Shown here: positions 2,227 to 19,616 of the stretch, one piece after another
How the letters are laid out: every line of letters begins with the position of its first letter
Numbering within the stretch: position 1 is the stretch's first letter
Source of the DNA: an uncultured Bacteroidota bacterium
GTDB lineage: Bacteria; Bacteroidota; Bacteroidia; Bacteroidales; CG2-30-32-10
Direction: 5' to 3'
Length of the DNA: 53,979 nucleotides
NCBI GenBank assembly: GCA_903889915.1
Contig: CAISZK010000195.1
Coordinates: 1-53,979 of the forward strand
Translations under genes and position numbers: made by a program
The notes under the pieces: generated by a model
What the model was told of the DNA's origin: nothing
The model's database searches: none
Seen by the model: the letters and a program-made list of their open reading frames with translations, nothing else

Positions 2227-3342
2227 TTATCCATGGATGAATATTTCTGTTTTCCTGATTGTTTTCCGTTTTGTGAAATGTTCTGAATCTCCGTATTCGT
2301 TGTACACAATTTCTTCGCCTATCATCTTCACCCTGTTTGCAAGGCAGTCAAGACATTCGTCAGCTTCTTCGTCAATACATGGTTTGTTTTCATAAAGAAG
2401 GTAATTGCTTTTATATTTGCCGGGTGTAAGGTTTGGCATCAGCACATTTGCACCGGCTTTCAGTCCGCGTTCTCTTCCCATTTTCATGATAGATTGAAGC
2501 GCTGTTGTTGATGCGATGTTGATAAAAGGCATCATGATTCGTAAAATCGCGATCATGCGAAGTGACAGGTTGAACCGTTCAGGGAGAGGCAGCAACATGT
2601 CGTTGTATTTGTATAAAGGCGTGTCAGCGTGTTCGAGATAAGGGCCCATGCCTACCATATCAATGCCCATTTTTTTTATGAATAAAAGATCGTCGGCAAG
2701 ATATTCTGTTGTTTGAAAGGGCAATCCTATCATTACTCCTGTTCCGGTTTGGTAACCCGCTTTCTGAATGTTTTCAAGGCATTTCAAGCGTGTTTTATAA
2801 TTGTGCAAATCATTAACGGGATGAATTTTTTTATAAAGCGTTTCATTGGAAGCTTCAATGCGAAGCAAATATCGTTGCGCCCCGGCATCGAACCATTCTT
2901 TGTATGTTTCGAATGATTGCTCTCCCAGTGAAAGTGTAATCCGGAATTCAGGGTTTGTTACTTCCTTAATTTTGGTTATCAGATCTGTTATTCTTTTCGT
3001 AAAACCGATATTGTTTTGCTCACCTGACTGCAGCACAATGCCTGTGAATTTGTTTTTTTGAGCGAAATCAACAACATTGATAATTTCTTCGTCGGAAATG
3101 GAATACCTGTTGACTTTTGTATTGCCGGCCCGGATGCCACAGTAGAAACAATTTTTTTTGCACTGATTTGAAAACTCTATAAGTCCCCTCAAATAATCTT
3201 TTTTCCCTACACAACTTTCCTTGACCGAATATGCTTTTTTAATCAGAGTGTCGTGATCTTCTTTGGTGGTAAGTGAAAGCAAGGAAATGATATCAGCCTT
3301 CGACAGTTCCTGTTTGGATAATATTTCACTTACGGTATTCAT
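2227..3342 (-). CDS. hydE: [FeFe]-hydrogenase maturase HydE (radical SAM)
   Basis: HydE is a radical SAM enzyme needed with HydF and HydG to assemble the di-iron subcluster of the H-cluster; it acts in building the dithiomethylamine bridge. The 371-residue protein has the CX3CX2C radical SAM motif in NQCKKNCFYCGIR near residue 60. Its C-terminus has CX7CX2C (CIDEEADECLDC), which matches the second-cluster cysteines known in HydE. The ATG at 3342 gives a normal N-terminus. A 480-bp spacer full of small hairpins separates it from hydF, so it may be transcribed separately from the main operon. Confidence 0.95.
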   Translation of the reverse strand: MNTVSEILSKQELSKADIISLLSLTTKEDHDTLIKKAYSVKESCVGKKDYLRGLIEFSNQCKKNCFYCGIRAGNTKVNRYSISDEEIINVVDFAQKNKFTGIVLQSGEQNNIGFTKRITDLITKIKEVTNPEFRITLSLGEQSFETYKEWFDAGAQRYLLRIEASNETLYKKIHPVNDLHNYKTRLKCLENIQKAGYQTGTGVMIGLPFQTTEYLADDLLFIKKMGIDMVGMGPYLEHADTPLYKYNDMLLPLPERFNLSLRMIAILRIMMPFINIASTTALQSIMKMGRERGLKAGANVLMPNLTPGKYKSNYLLYENKPCIDEEADECLDCLANRVKMIGEEIVYNEYGDSEHFTKRKTIRKTEIFIHG

Positions 3343-3821: not shown

Positions 3822-5045
3822 TTATTTAATAAATGGTGCAACTGCTCTGTCAAAAATTCCATTGATATAAGCTATTGTCAGCCCGTAATTGCTGACAGGA
3901 ACGCCTGCTTCAATGGCATCAGCCAACCGACTGAATATTTGTTTGCGTGTGATCATACATCCGCCGCACTGAATAATCAAAGCATAATCTGTAATGGGAT
4001 TTTTTATTTCATTCAAGCCTGCAACGGTTTCAAATTCCAGTTTTTTCTTTGTGAATTCTTTCAACCAGCGTGGAATTTTATACCTGCCGATATCTTCACA
4101 ACTTACCTGGTGGGTGCACGATTCAAGAATTAATATTTTGTCGCCATCTTTCAGCGTGGCAATTTTTAAAGTTCCATTGATGTATTCATGAAAAGGGCCA
4201 CGCATATTGGCATAAGCAACACTAAAGCCGGTTAAGGGAATTTCAGGAGGAATGATTTTATTTACAAATCCGAATGCCTGGCTGTCGGTAATAACTAATT
4301 TTGGTTTGATTCCTGTCTTTTTCAGAAATAATTCAGCTTCCGTTTCCTTAACCACAATATTGATTGCATTGTTATCGAGAACATCGCGGATAGCCATTAC
4401 CTGTGGCAGGATCATTCTTCCCTCGGGAGCTTCAGAATCAACAGGCGTGATGAGCATCACAATATCGCCTCGTTCAATGATGCCTTTTAATAAAGATGGG
4501 TTTTTATAAGCTGTTTCCGGTATCGTGTTCTTAAGCGCTTCGATGATCCCTTCAATATTTAATTTTGTTCGTGAACTAAATTCAACAACCATTGCGTTTG
4601 TGAATTGGTCAATAGTTTTTATTGTTGAATTCAATAAAGGCTCAATATCGGTTTTGTTGTGCACGATCAGATATGGAATATCTAATTTGATGAATTTCTG
4701 AATAAGCATTTTTTCATAATCACCGAAAATGTTATTTGCTATAAGCAGGATGGCACAATCAATTAGCTTAATAACTTCCAGTGTTTTTGCAATTCTTTTT
4801 TCGCCGAGTTCCCCGCTGTCGTCAATACCGGCGGTATCAATGATGATGGCAGGGCCGATACCGAATATCTCCATTGATTTTTTTACGGGGTCGGTGGTTG
4901 TTCCAGCAATTTCAGAAACTATAGCAATATCAAGCTTTGTGAGAGCATTGATGAATGAACTTTTGCCGAAATTTCTACGGCCAAAAATTCCAATGTGCGG
5001 TTTGTTATCTCTTCCTTTTGACATAATTTTATTGTTTGAATTCAT
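3822..5045 (-). CDS. hydF: [FeFe]-hydrogenase maturation GTPase HydF
   Basis: HydF is the scaffold GTPase on which the di-iron subcluster is assembled before delivery to HydA. The N-terminal Ras-like domain has the P-loop GRRNFGKSS, the G3 motif DTAG and G4 NKTD. The C-terminal cluster-binding region has CTH, then 46 residues, then QCGGC. The family motif is CxHx(46-53)HCxxC, so here the second histidine is glutamine. The 407-residue length is typical. The start codon lies directly after the hydG stop (5046), indicating tight co-transcription. Confidence 0.95.
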   Translation of the reverse strand: MNSNNKIMSKGRDNKPHIGIFGRRNFGKSSFINALTKLDIAIVSEIAGTTTDPVKKSMEIFGIGPAIIIDTAGIDDSGELGEKRIAKTLEVIKLIDCAILLIANNIFGDYEKMLIQKFIKLDIPYLIVHNKTDIEPLLNSTIKTIDQFTNAMVVEFSSRTKLNIEGIIEALKNTIPETAYKNPSLLKGIIERGDIVMLITPVDSEAPEGRMILPQVMAIRDVLDNNAINIVVKETEAELFLKKTGIKPKLVITDSQAFGFVNKIIPPEIPLTGFSVAYANMRGPFHEYINGTLKIATLKDGDKILILESCTHQVSCEDIGRYKIPRWLKEFTKKKLEFETVAGLNEIKNPITDYALIIQCGGCMITRKQIFSRLADAIEAGVPVSNYGLTIAYINGIFDRAVAPFIK

Positions 5046-6467
5046 TTACAAATACAAATCTCTTTCTCCCTGTTTAATTTTTACAAGCCTTTTTATGACT
5101 TCTTCTTGCAACGATTTATCAACAGTGGTAATATTTTTCAATATCAACTTCCATCCTTTTTCTTTTACGTTTTCTGATGCATAATCCATCAGGTATTCTG
5201 CAAGTGTGAGGAGTGCATTGGGCGTACAATATTTTTTGATAAACCCGGGAACTGAAAATTCCATGAAATGCTGACCTGTTCTGCCTTTTCTGTAGCATGA
5301 TGTGCAGAAAGAGGGGAGATAACCTTTGTCAATAAGTTCTTCCATGACTTCTGCCAGGGAGCGATCATCGTTAATTTTGAATTGTTCCCGTCGCAGGTTT
5401 TGTTTTTCAGAATCGGGTTTTGCATAGGCTCCGATTTCAATTTTTGTTCCTGCATCTATTTGCGAGCAGCCGAATTCAAGAACTTCTTTCCTGATATTTT
5501 CAGGTTCCCTTGCAGTAAGAATTAAGCCGGTATAAGGCACAGCAAGACGAAGGATAGAGATTATCCGGACAAATTCTTCATCGCTGACTTTGTAAGGAAA
5601 TGAATTATCCATCACGGAAGCGTCCTGTATCCTGGGAAAAGAGATTGTATGCGGACCTACATTGAAACATGCTTCAAGATGGTTGACATGACGGACAAGA
5701 GATAATAATTCAAATTTCCAGTCGTACAAACCAAAAAGAACACCAATACCCACATCATCAATTCCGGCTATCTGGGCTTTATCCAAAGAAGTAAGCCTGT
5801 TTTCGAAATCAGCTTTTTTCCCACCCAGATGATATTTCCCATAAGTTTCTTTATGATAAGTTTCCTGGAAGATCTGGTATGTGCCGATGCCTGAATCTTT
5901 GACTTTTTTAAATCCTTCAACTTCGAGAGGGGCTGCGTTGATATTTACACGGCGGATTTCTCCATTCTTTTCTTTCACCTTATAAACCGTTCTGACACAT
6001 TCGGCAATATAGTCAGGTGAATATTTTTCATGCTCACCAAACACAAGAATCAGTCTCTTCTGCCCTGTGTTTTCAAGCGCTTTGACATTGTTTACCAATT
6101 CTTCATTATCGAGTGTGTGGCGAATCTCTTCCTTGTTTGAAGCACGAAACCCGCAGTATGAACAGTTGTTACGACAGAGGTTTCCGACGTACAATGGCGC
6201 AAACAAAACTATACGATTGCCATAAACTTCTTTTTTTAATTTTCTGGCTCCTTCTTTTATTTCGTCAATCAGCCGCGAATCTTCAGAATTGATAAGTATG
6301 GCCGTTTCCCTGAGGCTGAGTCTTTCTTTAGAAAGCGCTTTGGTAATAATCTTGCTTACTTCTCCCGGTTCCGGAATGATCTTTAACAGATCTTCAATTT
6401 CTTTATTGTCAATGTATGGCTTTAAAGGAATGTCTTCGATTGCATATTTTTGCGGTACGAATTTCAT
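5046..6467 (-). CDS. hydG: [FeFe]-hydrogenase maturase HydG (tyrosine lyase, radical SAM)
   Basis: HydG cleaves tyrosine to supply the CO and CN ligands of the H-cluster. The 473-residue protein has the radical SAM motif CX3CX2C (LCRNNCSYCGFRASNKE). Near the C-terminus it has CX2C followed by exactly 22 residues and a Cys (from CTSCYRKGR to KKYC), the CX2CX22C auxiliary-cluster motif specific to HydG and absent from ThiH. It is followed immediately by hydF and preceded, 21 bp away, by the receiver-kinase gene, so it belongs to the long hydrogenase operon. Confidence 0.97.
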   Translation of the reverse strand: MKFVPQKYAIEDIPLKPYIDNKEIEDLLKIIPEPGEVSKIITKALSKERLSLRETAILINSEDSRLIDEIKEGARKLKKEVYGNRIVLFAPLYVGNLCRNNCSYCGFRASNKEEIRHTLDNEELVNNVKALENTGQKRLILVFGEHEKYSPDYIAECVRTVYKVKEKNGEIRRVNINAAPLEVEGFKKVKDSGIGTYQIFQETYHKETYGKYHLGGKKADFENRLTSLDKAQIAGIDDVGIGVLFGLYDWKFELLSLVRHVNHLEACFNVGPHTISFPRIQDASVMDNSFPYKVSDEEFVRIISILRLAVPYTGLILTAREPENIRKEVLEFGCSQIDAGTKIEIGAYAKPDSEKQNLRREQFKINDDRSLAEVMEELIDKGYLPSFCTSCYRKGRTGQHFMEFSVPGFIKKYCTPNALLTLAEYLMDYASENVKEKGWKLILKNITTVDKSLQEEVIKRLVKIKQGERDLYL

Positions 6468-6488: not shown

Positions 6489-7610
6489 TCAATATCTCGG
6501 CAATGTTATTGTAAACGTGCTTCCTTTTCCGGAATTACTGGAAACGTCAATGTTCCCGTTATAGATTTCAACTATCTTTTTGACAATTGATAACCCAAGC
6601 CCGGTTCCGACAATGTCTTTTGTGCTTAAGTTTTTTATTCTTACAAATTCGTGGAAAAGCTTGGTAATATCATCTGCTGACATGCCAATGCCGGTGTCTT
6701 CAATAATTATATTCACCGCATTCCCCAGATCTTTGATGATGATGTATATCTGCCCGTTTTCCTTGTTGTATTTAACTGCATTTGAGATCAGGTTATTGAA
6801 AATTATCTCCATTTCCTGTCTGTCAGCTTTCATGAGGATACTTTCAGGAGCATCAAGGTAGATTTTTATGTTCTTCTGTTTTGCCAGTGGTTCAAAAGTA
6901 TCAATGGCAAATTTTGACACGTCAAATAAGTCCACTTCCTGCAAATGCCTGTTGTTTTGGCCGGATTCTATCCTTGTCAGATCAAGCATGTCGGATATCA
7001 GACTGCGCATGCCTTTCATTCGTAACAGAGAGCGCTCAATCATCTGATCATAATCTTCCAGTTTATCACCTGCCTGTCTTTCACGCATCATATTCATGTA
7101 GCCTTCTACAGCATTGATAGGAGATTTCAGTTCATGAGAAAGAACGGAGAGGAACTGGTGACGCAGTTCCTTGTCATTCTCCGTCATTTTTTTTGTCATC
7201 CGTTTCAGGTAAAGATGCTTGGTGATGCTCTCCATGGCAGCTTTTAATTCCTGAGGCACGAAAGGCTTAGGAACAAAGTTATAAGCACCGTTTTTTGTAG
7301 CAGTGACAGCAAGTTCCAGGGATGCATAGGACGTGATCATCATGACCTGAATATCGTATTTGTTTTTACTGACGTATTCCAAAACATCTATTCCAAGTAT
7401 TCCCGGAAGTTTGTTGTCGAGCAACATGATGTCCGTTTTATTTTCCTGTATAAAACTTATTGCCTCTTCTCCTGTTGCCGCTTCATGAATGTCGAATCCA
7501 AAATCTTCTTCCATGAAAGGGAATCCCACGGTGTAATTTCTCAGTATCCTGCATATCCCGGAACGTATCCCCGGCTCGTCGTCAACCACTAACACTAGTA
7601 ACTTTTCCAT
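6489..7610 (-). CDS. Receiver-histidine kinase hybrid (REC-HisKA-HATPase)
   Basis: The 373-residue soluble protein starts with a receiver domain (acidic pair D10/D11, phospho-acceptor D65 in MLLDNKLPG, conserved K115 in VPKPF). It continues with a HisKA dimerisation domain whose H-box SVLSHELKSPINA contains H159, and ends with a HATPase domain (NLISNAVKYN, DTGIGM, GTGLGLSIV). It has no transmembrane segment and no output domain. This order suits a kinase whose activity is set by phosphorylation of its own receiver, that is, a mid-step of a relay. It lies between the stand-alone receiver gene (15 bp) and hydG (21 bp). Its role in hydrogenase control is inferred from position. Confidence 0.9.
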   Translation of the reverse strand: MEKLLVLVVDDEPGIRSGICRILRNYTVGFPFMEEDFGFDIHEAATGEEAISFIQENKTDIMLLDNKLPGILGIDVLEYVSKNKYDIQVMMITSYASLELAVTATKNGAYNFVPKPFVPQELKAAMESITKHLYLKRMTKKMTENDKELRHQFLSVLSHELKSPINAVEGYMNMMRERQAGDKLEDYDQMIERSLLRMKGMRSLISDMLDLTRIESGQNNRHLQEVDLFDVSKFAIDTFEPLAKQKNIKIYLDAPESILMKADRQEMEIIFNNLISNAVKYNKENGQIYIIIKDLGNAVNIIIEDTGIGMSADDITKLFHEFVRIKNLSTKDIVGTGLGLSIVKKIVEIYNGNIDVSSNSGKGSTFTITLPRY

Positions 7611-7625
7611 GACTTTTGTTTTTTA

Positions 7626-8018
7626 TTACTTCATTAAACTGTTTATTTCTTTTTGAAGCTGATCGGGTCGCAAACTCTTGTCAATATATCTGTCAGCCTT
7701 TATCCATGAGCGTTCACCAGGACTGTTGAGACCAAATACCAATCCTGTTTCTGCTGTAACAGCAGTGGCAATAATAACCGGAACATCAGGATATAATTTT
7801 TTGAGCTTATGACTGAGGATAAAACCACTGTCCTTGTTTTCCATCATAAGATCGAATATAGCAAGGTCGGGTTTGAAAAGAGTTAACTGTTCTTCTGCTT
7901 CTTTCTGGCTTGTGACTGCATGAACTTCAAAACCCATAAGTTTTGTGTTGACTTCCATGAAAGTTAAAAAATCGGGATCATCATCTGCAATCAGTACTTT
8001 TTTATTATTTGTTTTCAT
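7626..8018 (-). CDS. Stand-alone receiver protein of the hydrogenase operon
   Basis: This 130-residue single receiver has the acidic triplet DDD at 12-14, the phospho-acceptor D56 (LAIFDLMMEN) and a late K in DRYIDKSLRP. The segment before that lysine is extended (GERSWIKADRYIDK), also seen in the second receiver of the protein at 14245-15195. The ATG at 8018 was chosen over upstream starts because those would overlap the end of the sensor-kinase gene, while MKTNNKKVLIADDD is a standard receiver start. It carries no output domain, so it is probably a phosphate shuttle between the hydrogenase-like kinase upstream and the receiver-kinase downstream (inference). Confidence 0.88.
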   Translation of the reverse strand: MKTNNKKVLIADDDPDFLTFMEVNTKLMGFEVHAVTSQKEAEEQLTLFKPDLAIFDLMMENKDSGFILSHKLKKLYPDVPVIIATAVTAETGLVFGLNSPGERSWIKADRYIDKSLRPDQLQKEINSLMK

Positions 8019-8031
8019 AACAATGAAATTT

Positions 8032-10023
8032 TTAATTGGTTTTATTTTTTGGTAATACAATAGTGAATGTAGTGCCGGTTGGTCCTTTTGTAGGATCGTT
8101 ATTTGAATTAACTAAAAGGTCTCCTTTGTGCATTTTCACAATGCCGTAAACTGTTGGCAGGCCAAGACCGGTGCCTTTTCCGACAGCTTTTGTTGTGAAG
8201 AAAGGTGTGAAAAGCTTGTCCATATTTTCTTTCGGGATTCCTGTTCCTGAATCTTTAATACTGATATGGATTTTTTCATCTGATTCTTCAAGGTGTATTT
8301 CAATTTGTCCTCCTTCCTGCATTGATTCCATTGCATTTTTGATAAGATTTGTGATAGCCTGAACCATTTGTTCCTTATCAAGCAGCAAGCTGGTTAGAGT
8401 AAGGTTCTTTGTTACATTGATCTTTATGTTAGCAGGAATGATTAAAGAACTCAGGCAATCATTAATAAGCGAGTCAATGCCTGTCATCTCATAACGCACC
8501 TGGTTTGTTCTTGCAAAATTCAGCAGACCACTTACAATTGATTTGCATCTTTCTGCCTGATGAGTGATGAGTTCGAGATCCTGCCTTATTTGAGAATCAG
8601 GAGGACATTCTTCAAGTAAAATATTGCTATACATAATAACCACACCAAGCGGGTTATTTAATTCATGTGCAATACCTGCCGATAACTGACCCATGTGAGC
8701 AAGTTTTTCTGATTGCCTGAGAGCAAGCTGAACATTGGCAAGTTTGTCATTAGAAAGCGCCAGTTCTGAATTGTATTTATGAAGTTTTTCAATCGTGAAA
8801 GGCAAACACATTTCCTGTTCTGCAATTCCTTTGTAGATTGCTATTGCATGTTCTTCACAAGTGTCATATCCGCATGCACCGCAATTCAGGTGATCACTTT
8901 TACTTTCTTTCCCGAGAAACTTAAGGATTCTTGTGATTTCGTCATCTGTAGCAAAAAGAATACGCTGGTCATTTGCCTCGAAAGTTTTTGAAAGATCCAG
9001 GTTTTTGAAACGTTCTATGTTTTCCTGCCAGCTTTGCAAATTGAAGTTCTCCATTTTTTCGTTTGCATATTTTTTTATGCAAGCGATTTGGGTGTAGGTT
9101 TTTCCCGATGGGGTCATGCCTACACCTTTAATACAGCCATTGCAACAGAGCAGTTCAAGTAAATCTGATTTGGATAAACCCGACTCCGCTTCTTTAATTG
9201 CTTCAACAAAATTTAACCTCCCGTCAGCAACAATATTGTTGCTTTTCAAAATGTCATCTTCCGATTCAAGGTTGTAAAGCAATCCCCTGCTTACCGGAAA
9301 TACTGCACCTTTACCACCCAGTGGTTCGTCAAATTCGCAGGGTGTGGTATTCTCAGGAGAGATATTTAATTTGAGAAACAATTCACGTAATTCGCGAAAT
9401 GTAATTACCTCGCATATCTCAACATCCTCAGATTTCTTTGCAATACATGGACCTATAAAAACAATTTTTGTTTCTTTTCCGTAAAGTTCATGCAACACTT
9501 TTGCTGTAGCTCCCATCGGAGAAACAATAGGGATGAGATTTTTTACGATATCAGGATTGTATTTTTCAATGTAGGTAACTATTGCAGGGCAATCGGATGA
9601 AATATAATTCTGAAGTTTATTATCGCGAAGTATCTCTTTATATTTTAAGGCAACAAGGTCTGCCCCAAAAGCCACTTCATGCACTTTTGAAAACCCTATT
9701 GCTTTTATCATTCCAACAAAAGTTTTGTGATTTACAAATTCGCTGAATTCAGCCGGGAAACTTGGAGCAATACAAGCGACAACATTATTGTCAGTTTTTA
9801 GCATGTCAAGCACATTGTCCATGACCTTGTAATATTGTTTGGCATCCTGGCTGCATACCTTTACACAATTACCACAGCCAATACAGCGACTTGCTATAAC
9901 TTCAGCCTGACCATTGACGATCTTTATTGCTTTTGCAGGACACTCTCTTACGCAAGTGTAGCATATCCTGCAACGCTCTTTTATCGTATAAACCAGTGGT
10001 AATATGTTTTCTTTTGTTGTCAT
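8032..10023 (-). CDS. Hydrogenase-like sensor histidine kinase (HydS type)
   Basis: This 663-residue fusion starts with two [4Fe-4S] ferredoxin motifs (CRICYTCVRECP, CIGCGNCVKVC; residues 18-57). Next is an [FeFe]-hydrogenase H-cluster domain (about 80-320), a further Fe-S motif CGACGYDTC (381-389) and a kinase core with H453 in IAHELNNPLG plus a HATPase (GTGLGLPTV). The four H-cluster cysteines appear present: C145 (SSDCP), C193 (GPCIAKK), C293 and C297 (CCNGC). The proton-transfer Cys of catalytic enzymes (first C of TSCCP) is Asp144 here, and Met of the third motif is Leu. Known group C sensory hydrogenases are likewise altered at this site. It is 2 bp from hydA. Likely an H2 or redox sensor rather than a bulk enzyme; no PAS domain was recognised. 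Confidence 0.88.
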   Translation of the reverse strand: MTTKENILPLVYTIKERCRICYTCVRECPAKAIKIVNGQAEVIASRCIGCGNCVKVCSQDAKQYYKVMDNVLDMLKTDNNVVACIAPSFPAEFSEFVNHKTFVGMIKAIGFSKVHEVAFGADLVALKYKEILRDNKLQNYISSDCPAIVTYIEKYNPDIVKNLIPIVSPMGATAKVLHELYGKETKIVFIGPCIAKKSEDVEICEVITFRELRELFLKLNISPENTTPCEFDEPLGGKGAVFPVSRGLLYNLESEDDILKSNNIVADGRLNFVEAIKEAESGLSKSDLLELLCCNGCIKGVGMTPSGKTYTQIACIKKYANEKMENFNLQSWQENIERFKNLDLSKTFEANDQRILFATDDEITRILKFLGKESKSDHLNCGACGYDTCEEHAIAIYKGIAEQEMCLPFTIEKLHKYNSELALSNDKLANVQLALRQSEKLAHMGQLSAGIAHELNNPLGVVIMYSNILLEECPPDSQIRQDLELITHQAERCKSIVSGLLNFARTNQVRYEMTGIDSLINDCLSSLIIPANIKINVTKNLTLTSLLLDKEQMVQAITNLIKNAMESMQEGGQIEIHLEESDEKIHISIKDSGTGIPKENMDKLFTPFFTTKAVGKGTGLGLPTVYGIVKMHKGDLLVNSNNDPTKGPTGTTFTIVLPKNKTN

Positions 10024-10025
10024 TA

Positions 10026-11750
10026 TTATTTTAATACTTCACGTTTCGAATAATTGGTATGCAGGTATTCATGGCTTGTTTCACCCAGAGGCTTTCCAAG
10101 GAATTTATTGTATAATTCCATGACCTGTGGATTGAGATGTGAAACATTGATGCTTTCTCTTTCATCAATATCGTGCAACCTTTTACCTCTTGCAATGATA
10201 GCGTCCGTATTGGCGCCAATGTGTTGACCACCCCCTGCAATACAACCTCCCTTGCAGGTCATGACCTCTATAAAATGAATGTTGCTTTTGCCGGAGGCAA
10301 TTATTTCCATCAATGGTAATGCATATCCGAGTCCGTTCACAACAGCAACATTAAGTTCCATATCGCCAACTTTCACTTTGGTTTCTTTTATACCCTGGAA
10401 ACCCCTTAATTGAGCAAATCTATGCTCATTGAGTTCTTTGCCAGTTATCACAAAATGTGCGGTCCTGAGTGCTGCTTCCATAACACCTCCGCTCACTCCG
10501 AATATCTTTCCGGCTGAAGTCCTTGTTCCAAGTGGTGAGTCAGCAGGTTCCGGTTGAAGTTTATTTATGTCTATACCGAATATCCTGATAAGTTTTGCTA
10601 GTTCACGAGTAGTTAAAACAGCATTGACATCGGCCATTCCGTTTGTTGACATTTCTTCGCGCTGTGCTTCGAATTTCTTGGCAGTGCACGGCATGACAGC
10701 TACAGAATATATTTTCGCGGGGTCTGTTTTTTCAACTTTGGAATAATAATTTTTAATTATACTCCCCATCATTTGTTGCGGCGATTTACAGGTTGAAAGA
10801 TTTGGAAGCATGGCAGGCCAGAATTCTTCCACATATTTTACCCATGAAGGGCAACAGCTTGTGAACATTGGTAGCGGCTTTTTATCCTCAATCCGGTGTA
10901 ACAATTCCGAAGCTTCTTCCATTATAGTAAGATCTGCTGCGAAACTGGTATCAAAAACTCTGTTAAACCCGATTTTTCTGAGAGCTGCATTCATGATACC
11001 GTTAATATCCCTTCCGGCTTCAAGTCCAAACTCTTCAGCAAGAGAAACGCTGATAGCAGGAGCATATTGAACAATTACCTGCATTTCGGGGTTGCTGATT
11101 GCTTCTATCACCTGGTTTAAATGCGATTTTTCAGAGATTGCACCTGTAGGGCAAACCATCAGACATTGTCCACAGTTCACACATGAAGATGTGTTGAGAC
11201 CTTTGTTGAATGAAGTTCCAACAATTGTCTTGCTTCCCCTGAAACTAAAATCAATTGCTGACACTCCGATGATTTCTTCACACTCCCTTATGCAACGTCC
11301 GCAAAGGATGCATTTATCCGGATCCCTGGTGAGACTTAATCCTGAGATATCAAGACTATAATTGTTCTTTTTGCCAATGATCCTTCGTTGTCTTACATCC
11401 AGTTCTTCTGATAAACTCTGTAGTTCACAGTTTTTGTTTCTTGAACAGAAAAGACAATCATCAGGATGGTTTGATAACAAAAGTTCAACGATCGTTTTGC
11501 GTGCGTTGATAACCCTTGGAGAATGCGTAAGAATACTCATTCCTTCTTCAACAGGGTAGGAACATGAAGTGATGAGTTTACCACTGCCTTCAATTTCAAC
11601 CAGGCACATCCTGCATGCACCACTTGGTAACATTTCTTTCATGTGGCAAAGCGTGGGTATCTTAATTCCGTTGCGCTCAAGAGTGTCAAGGATGTATTCG
11701 CCTTTTTCGGCTGTTACCGGCTTTTTGTTTATTGTTATATTGAGACTCAT
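10026..11750 (-). CDS. hydA: [FeFe]-hydrogenase catalytic subunit HydA (NAD/ferredoxin type)
   Basis: The 574-residue protein has the full clostridial-type layout. It has a [2Fe-2S] domain (C35, C46, C49, C63), a His-Cys [4Fe-4S] site (HPDDCLFCSRNKNC, 95-108), two [4Fe-4S] ferredoxin motifs (147-157, 190-200) and the H-cluster domain. The H-cluster signatures are intact: TSCCPSW (C299 proton transfer, C300), MPCTAKKFE (C355) and EVMTCKGGC (C499, C503), at the same numbers as in Clostridium pasteurianum CpI. With HydB and HydC adjacent it should form the cytoplasmic trimeric hydrogenase that couples H2 to NAD and ferredoxin (electron bifurcation or confurcation). The gene is 26 bp from hydB. 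Confidence 0.97.
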   Translation of the reverse strand: MSLNITINKKPVTAEKGEYILDTLERNGIKIPTLCHMKEMLPSGACRMCLVEIEGSGKLITSCSYPVEEGMSILTHSPRVINARKTIVELLLSNHPDDCLFCSRNKNCELQSLSEELDVRQRRIIGKKNNYSLDISGLSLTRDPDKCILCGRCIRECEEIIGVSAIDFSFRGSKTIVGTSFNKGLNTSSCVNCGQCLMVCPTGAISEKSHLNQVIEAISNPEMQVIVQYAPAISVSLAEEFGLEAGRDINGIMNAALRKIGFNRVFDTSFAADLTIMEEASELLHRIEDKKPLPMFTSCCPSWVKYVEEFWPAMLPNLSTCKSPQQMMGSIIKNYYSKVEKTDPAKIYSVAVMPCTAKKFEAQREEMSTNGMADVNAVLTTRELAKLIRIFGIDINKLQPEPADSPLGTRTSAGKIFGVSGGVMEAALRTAHFVITGKELNEHRFAQLRGFQGIKETKVKVGDMELNVAVVNGLGYALPLMEIIASGKSNIHFIEVMTCKGGCIAGGGQHIGANTDAIIARGKRLHDIDERESINVSHLNPQVMELYNKFLGKPLGETSHEYLHTNYSKREVLK

Positions 11751-11776: not shown

Positions 11777-13714
11777 TCAATAAGAGGATATAGCATTAAA
11801 ATTACATGCCTCAGCACATGCACCGCAGCCTATACATTTATCTTCTACGACATAATGTGCGGTTTTTTTTGCCCCAATGATGGCTAAAGCGGGACATTTT
11901 TTTATGCAAACCATGCATCCGGTGCATTTCTCAGCATCAATAGAAAATTTACGAAGCTCTGTGCAAATTTTGGCGTCACAGATTCTTTCATAAATGTGAG
12001 TTTCGTATTCATTCCTGAACCACTTGATAGTGCTGAGCACAGGATTTGGAGCAGATTGTCCAAGGCCACAAAGAGATGTTTCCCTGATAACTCTTCCTAA
12101 ATTTTCCAGTTGTATTACTCCCTGGAAACGCTCCAGCGCTTCGCGGTTATCTTCTGATGATGGTTTGTGGGTAATGTTTTCCAAAATTTCCAGCATACGT
12201 TTTGTTCCTTCTCTGCAGGGGATACATTTTCCGCAACTTTCTCTCTGGATAAAATCCATGAAAAATTTTGCAACGTCCACCATACAGGTATCTTCATCCA
12301 TTACGACCAGTCCACCGGAACCCATCATAGCATCTGCTTTCTTCAGTGAATCATAATCTACCTGGATATCCAGATTCTCTTCAGTTATGCATCCACCGGA
12401 AGGCCCACCTATTTGAACAGCTTTAAATTTTTTATCATTCCTGATACCACCGGCAATATTGAAAATAATTTCCCTGATGGTTGTTCCCATTGGTATTTCA
12501 ACAAGACCGGTTTTTGATACTTTTCCGGAAAGAGCAAATACCTTTGTTCCTTTGCTGTTTTTTGTTCCTATTGAACTAAACCATTTTGCACCATTCGCAA
12601 TAATAGCCGGTACATTTGAAAAAGTTTCAACATTATTAATTACTGTTGGCATGTGGAATAATCCGTCAGTAGCAGGGTAAGGAGGTCTTGGCCTTGGCAT
12701 GCCCCGTTTACCTTCAATACTGTTGATAAGTGCAGTTTCTTCACCACAAACAAATGCTCCTGCTCCTTTTTTGATTTTGATGTCAAAATCAAAACCTGTA
12801 TTCAATATGTTTTTCCCAAGGATTCCATATTCGCGTGCATCTTTCAATGCTATTTTCAACCGTTCAATTGCTAAAGGGTATTCAGCACGAATATATACAT
12901 AGCCGCAATTAGCGCCCATGGCATAACCACCGATGATCATTCCCTCAATCACACTGTGAGGATCGCCTTCAATTACCGCTCTATCCATAAAGGCTCCGGG
13001 ATCTCCTTCGTCTGCGTTGCAGATAATATATTTAGGCGTACGCCTCTCGTAAAGAGCAAGTGTCCATTTTTTCCCGGTTGGAAAACCACCACCACCTCTT
13101 CCACGAAGTCCACTTAATTCAATAATGTTACAAACCTGTATAGGCGTGTTTTCTTTTATAGTTTTACAAACATTTGCATATCCTCCGTTAGCGATATATT
13201 CTTCAATACTATAAGGATTTATGATGCCACAGTTTTTAAGAACTATTCTTTTTTGTGGAGCAAAGAACGGATGCTCATCAATGTATTTCACACCTTTCCA
13301 TTCTTTCGAATTTACTGAATGATACTGACCTATAATACCGTCAGAGGGAATCAGATTATTTAATAAGTTTTCAACTTTATCAAAAGTGATATTCTCGAAA
13401 GAGACACGGTTCATTCCGGGTAACATAATATCAACTATAGGTTCTGATGTACAAAGACCAATGCAACCTGTTTCTATGATATCAGCATCCAGATTATTCT
13501 TGTCGCAATATTTGCGTATCGCTTCAATCGTTTCTCCGGCTCCTGCACCAAGCCCGCATGTCCCGGCTCCAACGAATATCACTATTTGTGAATGATTTTC
13601 ACGCCTGTAATATGCTAACAATTCGTTAACTTTCTGTTGGGATTCTTTGTCGGTTTTTCCTTTAAGAAAATTTACAATCAAATCCTGTTTGTTTTTTTCG
13701 CTTACTGTTTTCAT
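11777..13714 (-). CDS. hydB: Hydrogenase flavoprotein subunit HydB (NuoF-like)
   Basis: The 645-residue diaphorase subunit has an N-terminal thioredoxin-like [2Fe-2S] domain, the FMN/NADH module (LRGRGGGGFPTGKKW, ICNADEGDPGAFMDR) and a NuoF-type [4Fe-4S] site (ESCGKCIPC with a later Cys in SLCGLGQ). It ends with a two-cluster ferredoxin domain (CTGCMVCIKKCP, CIGCGACAEACN). The ferredoxin tail distinguishes the hydrogenase/bifurcating type from complex I NuoF. In the N-terminal domain only three cysteines are visible (GTCGLGAG, then GCIGLC). It should exchange electrons between NAD(H), ferredoxin and HydA. It starts 2 bp after the hydC stop. Confidence 0.95.
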   Translation of the reverse strand: MKTVSEKNKQDLIVNFLKGKTDKESQQKVNELLAYYRRENHSQIVIFVGAGTCGLGAGAGETIEAIRKYCDKNNLDADIIETGCIGLCTSEPIVDIMLPGMNRVSFENITFDKVENLLNNLIPSDGIIGQYHSVNSKEWKGVKYIDEHPFFAPQKRIVLKNCGIINPYSIEEYIANGGYANVCKTIKENTPIQVCNIIELSGLRGRGGGGFPTGKKWTLALYERRTPKYIICNADEGDPGAFMDRAVIEGDPHSVIEGMIIGGYAMGANCGYVYIRAEYPLAIERLKIALKDAREYGILGKNILNTGFDFDIKIKKGAGAFVCGEETALINSIEGKRGMPRPRPPYPATDGLFHMPTVINNVETFSNVPAIIANGAKWFSSIGTKNSKGTKVFALSGKVSKTGLVEIPMGTTIREIIFNIAGGIRNDKKFKAVQIGGPSGGCITEENLDIQVDYDSLKKADAMMGSGGLVVMDEDTCMVDVAKFFMDFIQRESCGKCIPCREGTKRMLEILENITHKPSSEDNREALERFQGVIQLENLGRVIRETSLCGLGQSAPNPVLSTIKWFRNEYETHIYERICDAKICTELRKFSIDAEKCTGCMVCIKKCPALAIIGAKKTAHYVVEDKCIGCGACAEACNFNAISSY

Positions 13715-13716
13715 GA

Positions 13717-14178
13717 TTATTTTTCTTTATTTCTGAAACTTTCAATGATTTCTGTTAAAGAGTCTATGGTAACCTTTGCAAAGAATTGTCCGTTGATGCT
13801 GATAACAGGTGCTAAACCACATGCACCGATGCAAGCCACAATCTCAATACTGAAAAGCCCATCACGTGTTGTTTGTCCTGCTTTTATTTTTAGTTTCTTT
13901 TCAATTTCTTTAAGTACTGTTGATGATCCAAGCACATGACATGCGGTACCTCTGCATACCTGTATATGGAATTTACCATTGGGTTGAAAGCGAAATTGAT
14001 TGTAAAAAGTAGCAACGCCATATATTTTGCTTGTGGGAAGATGTAATATATTCCCAACTTTTACAATAGAATTTTCCGATAGAAATCCTTCGCTCTCCTG
14101 GATGTCCTGAAGCATGGGGATAAGGCTATCCCTTTTTGCTCCTTGATATTCCTGTAATATTAATTCTAGTTTATCCAT
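13717..14178 (-). CDS. hydC: Hydrogenase [2Fe-2S] subunit HydC (NuoE-like)
   Basis: The 153-residue thioredoxin-fold protein has the [2Fe-2S] motif CX4C (CRGTAC) and CX3C (CIGAC) of the 24-kDa complex I subunit NuoE and of HydC/HndA. It opens the hydrogenase operon, 2 bp before hydB, and has a well-formed Bacteroidetes promoter just upstream. It is expected to be a peripheral electron carrier in the HydABC complex. Confidence 0.94.
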   Translation of the reverse strand: MDKLELILQEYQGAKRDSLIPMLQDIQESEGFLSENSIVKVGNILHLPTSKIYGVATFYNQFRFQPNGKFHIQVCRGTACHVLGSSTVLKEIEKKLKIKAGQTTRDGLFSIEIVACIGACGLAPVISINGQFFAKVTIDSLTEIIESFRNKEK

Positions 14179-14244: not shown

Positions 14245-15195
14245 TTATTGAATGGATACTTCTTTGGTCCTTTTATCCAGGATCCTGTTGATTTCCGGAA
14301 TGAGTTTATTTACATCAATTGGTTTGCTTAAAAAACCATCAACGGGAAACCAGATAGATTTGCCATTTTCAGACAAATAATCAATACCGGCATTTCCAGA
14401 AACAACGTCTTTAACCAGGAGGACATACAATTCTTTAAAGCCTGGGTTTTTTCTAAACTCTCTTGCCATATCCTGAACCGATGGATTTGTTGTGACAAGA
14501 ATTTCAATTGAAGTTTGCATTAAGACAGGAATGTTTCTTAGTGTCGGGTCATCATTGATTTCTTTTGCCATTTCAAAACCTTCGTAATGTGTACTCATCA
14601 TTACATCTAGTATTGCAAGGTCAGGTTTTTCTTCACGAAGCTTCTGCATGCCTTCCAGTTTATTGCTCGCTGTTACTACATTATAGCCGTTTCTGCTTAA
14701 TATAGTTTGTAGAACAGTGATGATATCCATATCATCATCTACTAATAAAATCTTTGTTGTTTTCATAATGGTAAATTTTAAGTTATTTTTATATTGATTT
14801 ATATGAATTGGGAAAAATGTTTGTCCATCAATTACAATATCTATAGCTCTTTCGAGTTCTTTCCGTGAAGTGTTTTTTTGCAGGAAGCAATTCACCCCTG
14901 AGTTAATAATTGATGCCAGATAATTCAGATCATTAAAAGCCGTGATAGCTATAACCTTTATACAAGTGAAATTGCTTGTAATAGTTTTGCATAATTTAAT
15001 TCCATCGGTTCCCAGCATTTCTGTATCAAGTAAAATAAGGTCGGGATTTAAATGCAAAAGAATTTCCATTAGTTCATTTCCATTTGCAGCCTCACCTACA
15101 ATTTCCACCCGGCTTAATTTGGAAAGAGCCATCTTTAACCCTTCTCTGTATATCTGGTGGCCATCTGCTACTATCGTTTTTATTTTTGTTTGCAT
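14245..15195 (-). CDS. Double receiver protein (NarL-type REC fused to hydrogenase-type REC)
   Basis: The protein has 316 residues from the ATG at 15195; a TTG 21 bp upstream was rejected. Residues 1-125 form a NarL-type receiver (D57 in LILLDTEM, K107) without the HTH domain such proteins normally carry. One of its two acidic N-terminal residues is Gly (ADGH in place of DDH). Residues from 144 form a second complete receiver starting at an internal Met (MKTTKILLVDDD, ATG at 14766; phospho-acceptor near 197, late K in DGFLSKPID). The 18-residue junction QYKNNLKFTI resembles untranslated spacer. The product may be one fused protein, or the second receiver may also start independently. It lies upstream of the hyd promoter. 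Confidence 0.8.
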   Translation of the reverse strand: MQTKIKTIVADGHQIYREGLKMALSKLSRVEIVGEAANGNELMEILLHLNPDLILLDTEMLGTDGIKLCKTITSNFTCIKVIAITAFNDLNYLASIINSGVNCFLQKNTSRKELERAIDIVIDGQTFFPIHINQYKNNLKFTIMKTTKILLVDDDMDIITVLQTILSRNGYNVVTASNKLEGMQKLREEKPDLAILDVMMSTHYEGFEMAKEINDDPTLRNIPVLMQTSIEILVTTNPSVQDMAREFRKNPGFKELYVLLVKDVVSGNAGIDYLSENGKSIWFPVDGFLSKPIDVNKLIPEINRILDKRTKEVSIQ

Positions 15196-15213
15196 ATCCT
15201 TTGGAATTCGATG

Positions 15214-15221
15214 CAAAATTA
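15214..15221 (-). promoter_or_regulatory. -7 box upstream of the double-receiver gene
   Basis: TAATTTTG on the minus strand matches TAnnTTTG. It covers the alternative TTG start, supporting the ATG at 15195. No convincing -33 TTG at the usual distance. Confidence 0.4.
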
Positions 15222-15351: not shown

Positions 15352-15999
15352 CTATAAGTTAACCAATTTGTTTTTAATCACATAAGCTAAAAGCTGAATG
15401 GTGCTTTTGCAGCCTGTTTTTGAAAGAAGATTTGATTTGTGGCCAACTACGGTTCTTTCACTTATGTAGAGTTTATCTGCGATTTCTTTGTTGCTAAGCC
15501 CCTCGAGAGACAACTGAACAATTTCAATTTCTCTTTGGGTAAGCTTTACTTCAGGAGTCTCTTGCTTTTCAGTCTGGGTTATCTTTTTTGTAAAATATTG
15601 AAATAGTTCTTCGGAGTAATAATTTTTGCCAGCCATTACTGATTGTAAAGCTTTGTCGAGAGTTTCTTTTTTTATGCTTTTTAACAGAAAACCTTTAACT
15701 CCTGCATTAAGCATACTTTCCACATATTCCTCGTCATTGAACATTGTCAATGCAATGATCTTGAGATCGGGGTATTGTTCCAGGGCTTTCCTTGTTGCTT
15801 CAATACCGTTCATTACCGGCATTTCAATATCCATCAATACGATATCAGGCATGTCCAATTCAAGTATGTCAAGGAATTCCTTACCATTGGTAACTTCCGC
15901 AATCACTCTGCCGTACTTCAAACGATTGATAAGCAGTTTGAGTCCACTCCTGAAAATCTCATGATCGTCAACGATCATTATTTTTATCTTGTCATCCAT
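15352..15999 (-). CDS. NarL/FixJ-type response regulator
   Basis: The 215-residue regulator has a receiver domain (D11/D12, phospho-acceptor D57 in LMDIEMP, K107 in LLKSI) and a C-terminal LuxR-type HTH (LTQREIEIVQLSLEGLSNKEIA through SERTVVGHKSNL). It binds DNA as a phosphorylation-controlled transcription factor. The kinase gene 34 bp upstream is of the matching HisKA_3 (NarX-like) class, so the two form a cognate pair. Its target is not shown by sequence; the neighbouring hyd operon is the obvious candidate. Confidence 0.93.
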   Translation of the reverse strand: MDDKIKIMIVDDHEIFRSGLKLLINRLKYGRVIAEVTNGKEFLDILELDMPDIVLMDIEMPVMNGIEATRKALEQYPDLKIIALTMFNDEEYVESMLNAGVKGFLLKSIKKETLDKALQSVMAGKNYYSEELFQYFTKKITQTEKQETPEVKLTQREIEIVQLSLEGLSNKEIADKLYISERTVVGHKSNLLSKTGCKSTIQLLAYVIKNKLVNL

Positions 16000-16033: not shown

Positions 16034-17332
16034 TTATTTTACCTCCACTTCCAGATTAAAATGAAAATTTGGCATTGTATTGCTGAAACTATAATTTGCA
16101 TTAATTGTTTTCGATCTGCTGATAATGTTTTTTAACCCCATTCCGTTTTTGGAATCAAGGAGCTCTTCATTTACAATGCACCCAACACCATTGTCTTTAT
16201 AATCCAGTATTATTTTGGAATTAGAAATGTCAAGAACAATTTCTGACATTGAAGCTGTTGAATGTTTTAACGTATTGTTAATTAATTCTTCCGTTATCCG
16301 GTACAATATCATCTCAATTGCAATATCAAGTTTGGCGATGCAATTCTTACAGGTGAATTCTATTTTTATCTTATCAGTAACGTTTATTTTTTTCACCAAT
16401 GATTCTATAGCTTTTACAAGTCCATAATCCGTTATTACGGTTGGCATCAGGTTATCTGAAATAGTTCGGATATTCGACACTGCATCATCTAGCATTTCGT
16501 TAGTGAATTTAATAAGGTTTTCTTTTTCTTCACTAGAAATGTCATCACTGTATATTTCGTTCAGGTAGATCTTAATGGTATAAAGTAAAGGACCCAAACC
16601 GTCATGTATTTCTTTTGCAAACCTTTTCCTTTCGCGCTCTTCCGCTTCAATTACTGCGCTTAATATTTTTCTTTCAAATTCTCTTCTTTCAGTGATATCC
16701 CTTGCAATTGTAAAAATCACTTTTTCTCCTTTATACCTGATGGTCCTGCTGCTCATTTCCAGTGCAATATTTTTCTTGTCTTTGGAAACATGTTCGGATT
16801 CATAGACATGAGTACCATGTTTGATGATCTTATCAATATTCTCCCTGACCTGATTGACATATTTTGGAGGTTTGATATCGGCAAAATTCATTTTAAGCAA
16901 TTCTTCACGGGTATAGCCAAGTTTTTTTGTAACTTCTTTGTTCACCTCCAGGAAATTTCCTTCAATATCGGCCAGAAATAACTCGTCACTGCTATTATTG
17001 AACAAAGTGCGAAACCTGATTTCAGATTCGTAACGTTCGTTTTCAGTCTTTTTTATGGAAGTTAGTATTCTGGTTAAATAGACCAGACTAATAATCATTA
17101 TTACAGAAACAAAAATGTCTATCAGGGAGTTAAAATCGGCAATCTGGTATTGCTCGGGGCTTTGAAGATATAACACAAATTCAGACAAGCGCCTTAGCGC
17201 CATCAGTGTAAAACCAATGGAAATTAATATCCACGAAAGACGGCTTTGTGCAAGCCTGATCATTCGCAAGGCAAGCAGTATGGGGATAAACTGCAGTATG
17301 ATGGATAGTATAAGCCAGATGTATGTAAACAT
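16034..17332 (-). CDS. Membrane PAS histidine kinase, NarX/DegS class
   Basis: The 432-residue protein has about three transmembrane segments within residues 4-90. A PAS domain follows (about 100-215, FRTLFNNSSDELFLADIEGNF), then a HisKA_3 domain with phospho-accepting H243 in RFAKEIHDGLGPLL, and a HATPase (ELINNTLKHS, DNGVGC, GMGLKNI). It has almost no extracytoplasmic domain, so the signal is probably sensed in the membrane or by the PAS domain. It is co-oriented with and 34 bp from the NarL-type regulator. Confidence 0.92.
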   Translation of the reverse strand: MFTYIWLILSIILQFIPILLALRMIRLAQSRLSWILISIGFTLMALRRLSEFVLYLQSPEQYQIADFNSLIDIFVSVIMIISLVYLTRILTSIKKTENERYESEIRFRTLFNNSSDELFLADIEGNFLEVNKEVTKKLGYTREELLKMNFADIKPPKYVNQVRENIDKIIKHGTHVYESEHVSKDKKNIALEMSSRTIRYKGEKVIFTIARDITERREFERKILSAVIEAEERERKRFAKEIHDGLGPLLYTIKIYLNEIYSDDISSEEKENLIKFTNEMLDDAVSNIRTISDNLMPTVITDYGLVKAIESLVKKINVTDKIKIEFTCKNCIAKLDIAIEMILYRITEELINNTLKHSTASMSEIVLDISNSKIILDYKDNGVGCIVNEELLDSKNGMGLKNIISRSKTINANYSFSNTMPNFHFNLEVEVK

Positions 17333-18398: not shown

Positions 18399-19616
18399 TT
18401 ATTCTTCTGCAATTTTATTTTCCAGCAATTGTTTTCCGAACCTTTTTCCAAAATCAAGACATTTCTCAAAGTCTTTGTGATGCAGGGCGAATTTAACAGT
18501 GAAATCTTCTTCAAACATTTTAAATCTCAGGTTGGCGAGATTGTCATGAATGATCTTAAAACATTCGCCGCTCCATCCGTATGAGCCAAACACTGCAGCA
18601 AGTTTGCCTCTTTCACGGATTGGGTTTACCAATCCAAACAACTGGTAAATCTGCATGAGTGTATTCTTGTTGATAGTCGGTGATCCTACAAGCATTCCTG
18701 AACATTTAGAAAGATGTTCGGAGATAAGCAAAAATGGAGCATTTTCAATATCCACCACATTCACTTCAATTTCCCCGGCACTGCGTATTCCTTCTGCAAT
18801 TTTCTCAGCAATGTTTCCTGTCATTTTATATGCCGACACATAAGGAATAAAAACTGTGGGATGATCATTGGTTGATAAATATTTTTTGGCGTATTCCTCT
18901 GAAAGATCAACATATTTTTTCCAGTTACTGCGAAGAATCGGTCCGTGCCCTGTGGCGATCATGGATATGTCAAGAGGTCTTATCTTATCAATAGCTTTAA
19001 GTATGAACTTGCTGTAAGGGCTAAGGATTGAGTCAAAATAATATTTGAAAGCATCATCAAAATTGCCTACCTGATCATCGAACATTGTCTGATCACAAAA
19101 GTGACTGCCAAAACTGTCGCAGGTGAACAACACTTTGTCCTCTTCAAGATAAGAGTAAATGGTATCCGGCCAATGCAGGTTTGCAGCTCCAATAAAACGA
19201 ATAGTCTTGTTTCCGAGATCAAGGGTCTGCCCGTCTTTCACTACGATGTGTGGAAAATCATGACCCAGTTGATCGGTCATAAATCTGATCAGACTACCAC
19301 TGCCAACCACTTTTGCTTTGGGCGCTAATTGTAATAAATTCCCAAGATTGCCTGAATGATCAGGTTCGGAATGGTTCAGGATGATGTAATCAATTTCTTC
19401 AGGGTTTACAACTCTTTTGACTTTGTCAATGTAAGTTTCCCAAAATTTGGATTTGGTAACTTCAATAATGGCTTTCTTTTGAGCATTGATAAAATAGGAA
19501 TTGTACGTGGTTCCGTATTTTGTTTCCATGATAATATCAAAAACTCTGAGATCCGGATCCAGCACACCTATCCATTTTACATCAGGAGTAAGGTCCAGTA
19601 TTTTATTATCATTCAT
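18399..19616 (-). CDS. fprA: Flavodiiron protein (FprA, A-type flavoprotein)
   Basis: The 405-residue protein joins a metallo-beta-lactamase-fold diiron domain to a C-terminal flavodoxin domain (VGSPTINKNTL, FGSYGWSGE). The diiron ligands are visible in NHSEPDHSGN, in NLHWPDT, at the Asp of CDSFGSH and at ATGHGP. These soluble enzymes reduce O2 to water or NO to N2O using FMN and protect anaerobes, including those with oxygen-sensitive [FeFe]-hydrogenases. No rubredoxin domain is fused, so an external electron donor is expected. Confidence 0.95.
   Translation of the reverse strand: MNDNKILDLTPDVKWIGVLDPDLRVFDIIMETKYGTTYNSYFINAQKKAIIEVTKSKFWETYIDKVKRVVNPEEIDYIILNHSEPDHSGNLGNLLQLAPKAKVVGSGSLIRFMTDQLGHDFPHIVVKDGQTLDLGNKTIRFIGAANLHWPDTIYSYLEEDKVLFTCDSFGSHFCDQTMFDDQVGNFDDAFKYYFDSILSPYSKFILKAIDKIRPLDISMIATGHGPILRSNWKKYVDLSEEYAKKYLSTNDHPTVFIPYVSAYKMTGNIAEKIAEGIRSAGEIEVNVVDIENAPFLLISEHLSKCSGMLVGSPTINKNTLMQIYQLFGLVNPIRERGKLAAVFGSYGWSGECFKIIHDNLANLRFKMFEEDFTVKFALHHKDFEKCLDFGKRFGKQLLENKIAEE

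Follow-up and report, generated by a model that had tools for sequence, protein, structure and literature searches.

What does a histidine kinase that carries a hydrogenase domain sense, and what is the role of an aspartate in its active site, at the place of the cysteine that passes protons in catalytic [FeFe]-hydrogenases? Both questions are raised by an intact open reading frame of 663 amino acids with an ATG start (ORF call; positions 8032..10023, minus strand) in the window, which is the whole analysed stretch of 53,979 nucleotides from an uncultured Bacteroidota bacterium. The list of open reading frames and Pfam matches identify the product as an H-cluster-domain sensor histidine kinase resembling BfuT and HydS. 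Kinase-bearing BfuT proteins beside HydABC are already known (PMC11406978); the fixation of the aspartate in a Bacteroidota branch is new. The locus bears on proton movement and signal passing in sensory [FeFe]-hydrogenases: in the literature searched, the relay in TmHydS and TamHydS is unclear and no demonstration of a kinase output was found for either. Sensor and kinase are here on one soluble polypeptide, so that H2-dependent autophosphorylation could be directly measurable. We consider it probable that the protein is a cytoplasmic H2- or redox-sensing kinase which controls the adjacent NADH-dependent hydrogenase, and whose active site is tuned by the aspartate.

Domain architecture and gene neighbourhood

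Relatives of the kinase were the best 80 named loci out of 84,980 species genomes, to which were added genomes that share the family, class or phylum of the source genome; counts given below refer to sequences or loci listed from this set. The kinase begins with a 2x[4Fe-4S] ferredoxin domain (residues 12-61, 9841..9990, minus strand; Pfam Fer4_10), of which all eight cysteines (C18, C21, C24, C28, C47, C50, C53 and C57) are present in 98/98 listed sequences with these columns. It is followed, on the same strand, by the H-domain (Fe_hyd_lg_C, PF02906, E=1.9e-42; residues 80-300, 9124..9786), an FeS domain with a Cx2Cx4Cx16C motif (PF04060; residues 379-408, 8800..8889), a signalling helix seen in the AlphaFold2 model (residues 407-443, 8695..8805), a HisKA domain (PF00512; residues 444-506, 8506..8694) with the phospho-accepting H453 in the motif AHELNNPL, and a HATPase_c domain (PF02518; residues 549-660, 8044..8379). 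The FeS-domain cysteines C381, C384, C389 and C406 all occur in 101/101 listed kinase-fused sequences, and the kinase hallmarks (His, N-box and G-box) are found as H453 (101/101), N563 (98/98) and D591 (99/99 listed sequences). In structure searches with the AlphaFold2 model (67 sequences; pLDDT 87.9, pTM 0.67), the front half matched the [FeFe]-hydrogenases CbA5H, Thermoanaerobacter kivui HydA1, a Desulfovibrio enzyme and CpI, and the back half matched the kinase ZraS.

The domain order is common to all 67 listed relatives scanned with Pfam, and PF04060 is present in each of them. No PAS domain was matched by Pfam in the kinase or in these 67 members, and this result, together with the continuous model helix, ruled out that the linker conceals one. 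An earlier note on this DNA had described a direct fusion of the H-cluster domain to HisKA without a PAS domain. The absence of PAS holds, but the FeS domain and a coiled helix lie between the two parts; the FeS domain had been overlooked, as had the two ferredoxin clusters in front. The broader description as a compact H-cluster sensor kinase is well supported by the domains, the invariant ligands, the adjacent maturases and the conserved operon. Two listed loci, apparently from the same organism (L005 and L036), have an in-frame TAA that splits the kinase gene between ferredoxin and H-domain.

The genes run in the order hydC (13717..14178, NuoE-like), hydB (11777..13714, NuoF-like), hydA (10026..11750), kinase, single-domain response regulator (7626..8018; PF00072), receiver-HisKA-HATPase kinase (6489..7610), hydG (5046..6467; TIGR03955) and hydF (3822..5045; TIGR03918), with hydE (2227..3342; TIGR03956) after a gap, all on the minus strand; hydB, hydC and the receiver-kinase were assigned by Pfam, and the three maturases score above their cut-offs. 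HydA is a catalytic group A hydrogenase with the motif TSCCP and passes the NCBIfam 'NADH-dependent, group A6' model (NF040763, 795 bits, cut-off 765). For the receiver gene, the probable start is ATG 8018, just past the kinase stop, and not the listed TTG 8060 inside the kinase gene. HydA lies directly upstream of the kinase in 65/73 listed loci; in the 65 listed loci with room, the downstream receiver-kinase is found in 62 and the adjacent regulator in 57. Among the listed loci this order is conserved across more than 10 phyla, including Bacteroidota, Planctomycetota, Elusimicrobiota, Myxococcota, Lentisphaerota, Actinomycetota, Acidobacteriota, Hydrogenedentota, KSB1 and Ignavibacteriota. 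No earlier description of the receiver/receiver-kinase pair was found in the literature searched (main texts, mostly open-access).

Directly upstream of hydC lies a double-receiver protein (14245..15216, minus strand; two Response_reg stretches) that is kept in several relatives, followed by a LuxR-type response regulator (15352..15999, minus strand; REC and GerE; syntenic in L050, L055, L066 and L072) and a PAS-HisKA_3 histidine kinase (16034..17332, minus strand, identified by its domains; syntenic in L050, L055 and L066). The LuxR-type regulator is a candidate for the DNA-binding output. None is encoded directly downstream of the kinase, which counts against control of the hydrogenase by this kinase. 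Near the hydrogenase cluster, positions 18399-19616 encode a flavodiiron-like fusion of an ODP-type metallo-beta-lactamase and a flavodoxin.

The kinase and the adjacent HydA are the only two PF02906 proteins in the 5.55 Mb, 476-contig genome. Further hydrogenases may be present, since two open frames of about 490 amino acids on other contigs (C12 and C160) match the family of [NiFe]-hydrogenase large subunits. The window belongs to a Bacteroidales-type genome: judging from sequence, genomes of the same order carry Bacteroides-type monomeric hydrogenases, and the named relatives nearest to it are Bacteroidales MAGs.

HydDB groups C1-C3 are putative sensors (PMC5037454). The window kinase matches BfuT, HydDB group C3, a placement that rests on synteny and on the published Perlabentimonas example. 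The accessible part of PMC11406978 describes kinase-bearing group C3 BfuT beside BfuABC, including that of Perlabentimonas gracilis, and sub-type V BfuTABC clusters in Hydrogenedentota, Caldithrix and Perlabentimonas; as in sub-type V, an H-domain and a histidine kinase are here on one chain adjoining HydABC. P. gracilis (L101) falls in the Asp branch described below, and Hydrogenedentota relatives are in our set. HydDB labels C3 'phosphatase-linked', whereas the window protein bears a kinase. That part of PMC11406978 makes no mention of the aspartate, the receiver/receiver-kinase pair, the fixed linker or the shortened L3 loop. A non-kinase BfuT paralogue, encoded by a divergent gene upstream of hydC, occurs in L051, L042, L057 and L058, also in L037, L040, L101 and others; its residue at the C299 position is mostly Asn. 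The first four copies have lost H-cluster cysteines (GPV, YTE-F, YDEGC and YHSGC), which suggests that these paralogues are sensors that lost their cofactor.

The aspartate at the CpI C299 position

Residues 142-146 of the kinase read SSDCP and align on TSCCP of the neighbouring HydA, with D144 (codon GAT, 9592..9594, minus strand) on its cysteine. Phmmer likewise placed SSDCP on CpI residues 297-301, and D144 matches the aspartate of the C299D variant (6GLZ). The alignment is firm because the neighbouring C145 is a cysteine throughout the listed kinase-fused relatives, and the original observation of an Asp in place of the proton-transfer Cys is thus confirmed. A sequencing slip does not explain it, since at least 33 Bacteroidota sequences carry the aspartate, with both codons (GAT 26, GAC 7). 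Among 100 listed kinase-fused sequences the position is D30, T21, S20, P16, A12 and N1. The expectation that sensory enzymes usually have Ala here is fair for HydDB sensory sequences overall (Ala ~43%, Cys 17%, Pro ~10%, Ser ~10%; PMC10055695) but does not describe the kinase-fused family. About 20% of that published tally are unnamed residues, and Asp is possibly among them.

On a tree built without column 144, Asp occupies one branch (29/29 rows, support 94) and requires a single change; its rows are all Bacteroidota wherever named. Thr requires 10 changes, Ser 13, Ala 5 and Pro 3. At the rate outside the branch, about 5.3 changes would be expected within it and 0 were observed (P~0.005, estimated roughly with a Poisson model from a single, quickly built tree), while the Asp codon switched synonymously between GAT and GAC 6 times with 0 amino-acid changes. 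Ser or Pro occurs in some Bacteroidota-labelled sequences that fall elsewhere on the tree (L057, L058, L061, L104, L109, L112 and L115). Selection appears to keep Asp144 in one Bacteroidota branch, and nature seems to have retained a mutation previously investigated only in laboratory variants. No earlier report of a natural Asp at this position was found in the literature searched (main texts, mostly open-access), and the window kinase offers a natural, apparently selected counterpart of C299D.

The engineered variants indicate what the residue could do. In CaHydA, C298D is the sole active substitution at that cysteine and keeps high activity (PMC3485046). The carboxylate of CpI C299D is hydrogen-bonded to the azadithiolate amine; this variant retains 30-80% of H2 release, and its hydride state fails to accumulate (6GLZ; PMC6226526). 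The Cys to Asp change reduces H2 oxidation to 0.02-4% of the wild-type level, far more than it reduces evolution, and so tilts the balance to the latter (PMC9563086). By analogy with group A, the change would suppress H2 oxidation, the reaction expected of an H2 sensor, and this counts against a tuned H2 sensor. The laboratory variants are catalytic and have their relay intact, whereas the Asp of the window kinase is natural and lies in a kinase that has lost the relay. Of the group A relay C299-E279-S319-E282, the first three positions are D144, Y128 (Tyr in 95/100 listed kinase-fused sequences) and I164 (Ala/Ile in the family); the E282 position is ambiguous because of a gap. The group D path residue E252, which in a mapping made here corresponds to CpI V423, is L248 (Lys in some relatives).

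Against this background it is unlikely that Asp144 is a working proton relay between amine and water that gives the sensor a useful rate of H2 turnover. Such a relay would fit the ability of Asp alone to replace Cys with high activity in CaHydA (PMC3485046) and with much activity in CpI and HydA1 (PMC6226526), and Y128 could hold waters. With the next relay residues and E252 gone, however, a fast relay is not re-created by Asp on its own, and restoring Cys in TmHydS lowered activity (PMC10055695). No acidic or protonatable residue gained together with Asp is evident within the H-domain core of the alignment, and a proton path that co-evolved with Asp was ruled out on this ground. Fast relay by Asp144 is thus doubtful, since the CpI partners E279 and S319 are replaced, and tuning of the H2 threshold with slow turnover appears the safer reading. 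The suggestion in the earlier note of a relaying Asp with slow turnover therefore stands in part: group A Cys to Asp variants are active (PMC3485046, PMC9563086), but the replaced partners oppose it, and H2 turnover is something we infer, as the relay is not restored and an acidic partner did not co-evolve. A purely structural Asp144, acting as a helix cap or in a salt bridge and with no role at the amine, would agree with the drift of residue 144 among T/S/A/P elsewhere, which implies that the family can do without a proton donor at this site, but is improbable because alignment with the C299D crystal puts Asp144 beside the amine and because no Asp-specific salt-bridge partner was found for it. 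A branch-specific D144-R246 bridge was ruled out, as R246 (27/30 in the Asp branch) is frequent without Asp too (24/70 outside).

H-cluster ligands and the L3 loop

The predicted H-cluster ligands are C145 in L1 (9589..9591), C193 in a GPC motif in L2 (9445..9447) and C294 and C297 in a contracted L3 loop, C294-N-G-C297 (9133..9144), all on the minus strand; each is Cys in 101/101 listed kinase-fused sequences, and G191 occupies the CpI M353 position. Four ligand cysteines had been recognised before, of which C145, C193 and C297 stand and C293 is corrected to C294: position 293 varies (C50, F32, A12, S6 and L1 in the listed kinase-fused sequences), and conservation rules C293 out as the fourth ligand. 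CpI M497 falls on L292, with the L3 ligand Cys two residues further on; the same position is S267 in TmHydS (PMC10055695). The loop reads C-x-G-C in 100/101 listed kinase-fused sequences, the sole exception being L099. Compared with C-x-G-G-C of group A it lacks one residue, so that the canonical C-x-x-G-C is absent. HydA of the window has CKGGC, and two sensory references (L116 and L117) have C-x-G-S-C. On sequence grounds this shortening is as unusual as Asp144, and no earlier description of it was found in the literature searched (main texts, mostly open-access). With one residue fewer, the cluster geometry may differ from that of CpI, which counts against the reading as a tuned H-cluster sensor. 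Residues A86-P87-S88 and K197, which we take to be equivalent to the [2Fe]-contact residues A230-P231-S232 and K358 of CpI, are 97-100% kept in the listed kinase-fused sequences.

We give little credence to the alternative that the kinase holds [4Fe-4S] clusters only, without a [2Fe] subsite, and acts as a redox or oxygen sensor. It would account for the shortened loop and for Met170 at the CpI Q325 position (mapping made here), and the upstream paralogue, which lacks ligand cysteines in the same operons of several genomes, indicates that the H-domain fold can live without an H-cluster. In the kinase, however, the bridging C297, K197 and A86-P87-S88 are almost invariant. HydG and HydF in the same gene run also speak against it, if weakly, because HydA needs them anyway.

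From the H-domain to the histidine kinase

The last FeS-domain cysteine (C406) and H453 are 47 residues apart in the window kinase. In the 101 listed sequences this distance is always 47 (72 sequences) or 40 (29), one heptad apart, and it changed three times on the tree, each time by exactly 7 residues. In the AlphaFold2 model a single helix (407-472) begins immediately after C406; the confidence is lower around the middle of this helix. By this model, the fixed linker and single helix are what a fixed-register coiled coil would need. A heptad-fixed linker was not found described in the literature searched (main texts, mostly open-access).

These features were compared with characterised sensory enzymes by the residue numbers in the published papers on TmHydS and TamHydS. 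TmHydS, of group C (M2f), shares a non-Cys residue at C299, Gly at M353 and a C-terminal four-Cys cluster, but has Ala at C299, Ser at M497 and a PAS domain, where the window kinase has Asp, Leu and none (PMC10055695); a continuous model helix takes the place of the PAS domain that follows the FeS domain in group C (M2f). TamHydS, of group D (M2e), shares Cx2Cx4Cx16C, the absence of PAS, Leu at M497 and Glu at E289; it differs in Ala at C299, Ser at M353 and E252 (Asp, G191 and L248 in the window kinase) and has no kinase on the same chain (PMC8163306, PMC10407848). G191 and L248 also separate the window kinase from group D (M2e), which is marked by Ser or Thr at M353 and by the proton-path Glu at E252. 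A RaHydS-like protein of Ruminococcus albus (L116) shares the H-domain, the FeS-domain cysteines and a signalling neighbourhood, but has Cys at C299, the L3 loop CNGSC, no HisKA motif and an adjoining SpoIIE phosphatase gene.

The sequences themselves show the architecture, the conservation, the fixation of Asp, the linker length and the operon; for the tuned H2- or redox-sensing kinase that we prefer, we infer cofactor, ligand, direction of response and target as follows. HydE, HydF and HydG would assemble the H-cluster at C145, C193, C294 and C297, and H2, or a redox state set by H2, would reduce it and the ferredoxin clusters. The change would pass to the FeS domain and then to the heptad-registered coiled helix that runs directly into HisKA, and H453 would be phosphorylated or not. 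In TamHydS, H2 leaves the C-terminal cluster unreduced (PMC13104023), so a conformational change, rather than cluster redox, may be what drives the helix. From H453 the phosphate would move to the single-domain regulator, the receiver-kinase or both, and hydABC would be adjusted, so that the kinase would monitor the product of the hydrogenase encoded alongside. Asp144 would adjoin the azadithiolate amine as Asp299 does in CpI C299D, and most likely sets active-site acidity, the H2 threshold and slow turnover; a fast proton wire is not envisaged. Biochemistry for the kinase-fused family was not found in the literature searched, which counts against this mechanism. More tentatively, and with the balance somewhat against it, kinase-fused BfuT may form a separate class of PAS-free H2 receptors with a remodelled H-cluster (short L3 loop) and fixed-register readout into HisKA, in which the natural C299D site of the Bacteroidota branch dampens the oxidation of H2 and gives the sensor a threshold of its own for H2. 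Sensory-hydrogenase-like sequences, ~30% identical, also occur in three records labelled Bacteriophage sp. (MT835503, MT835859 and MT835845), which are possibly bacterial contigs.
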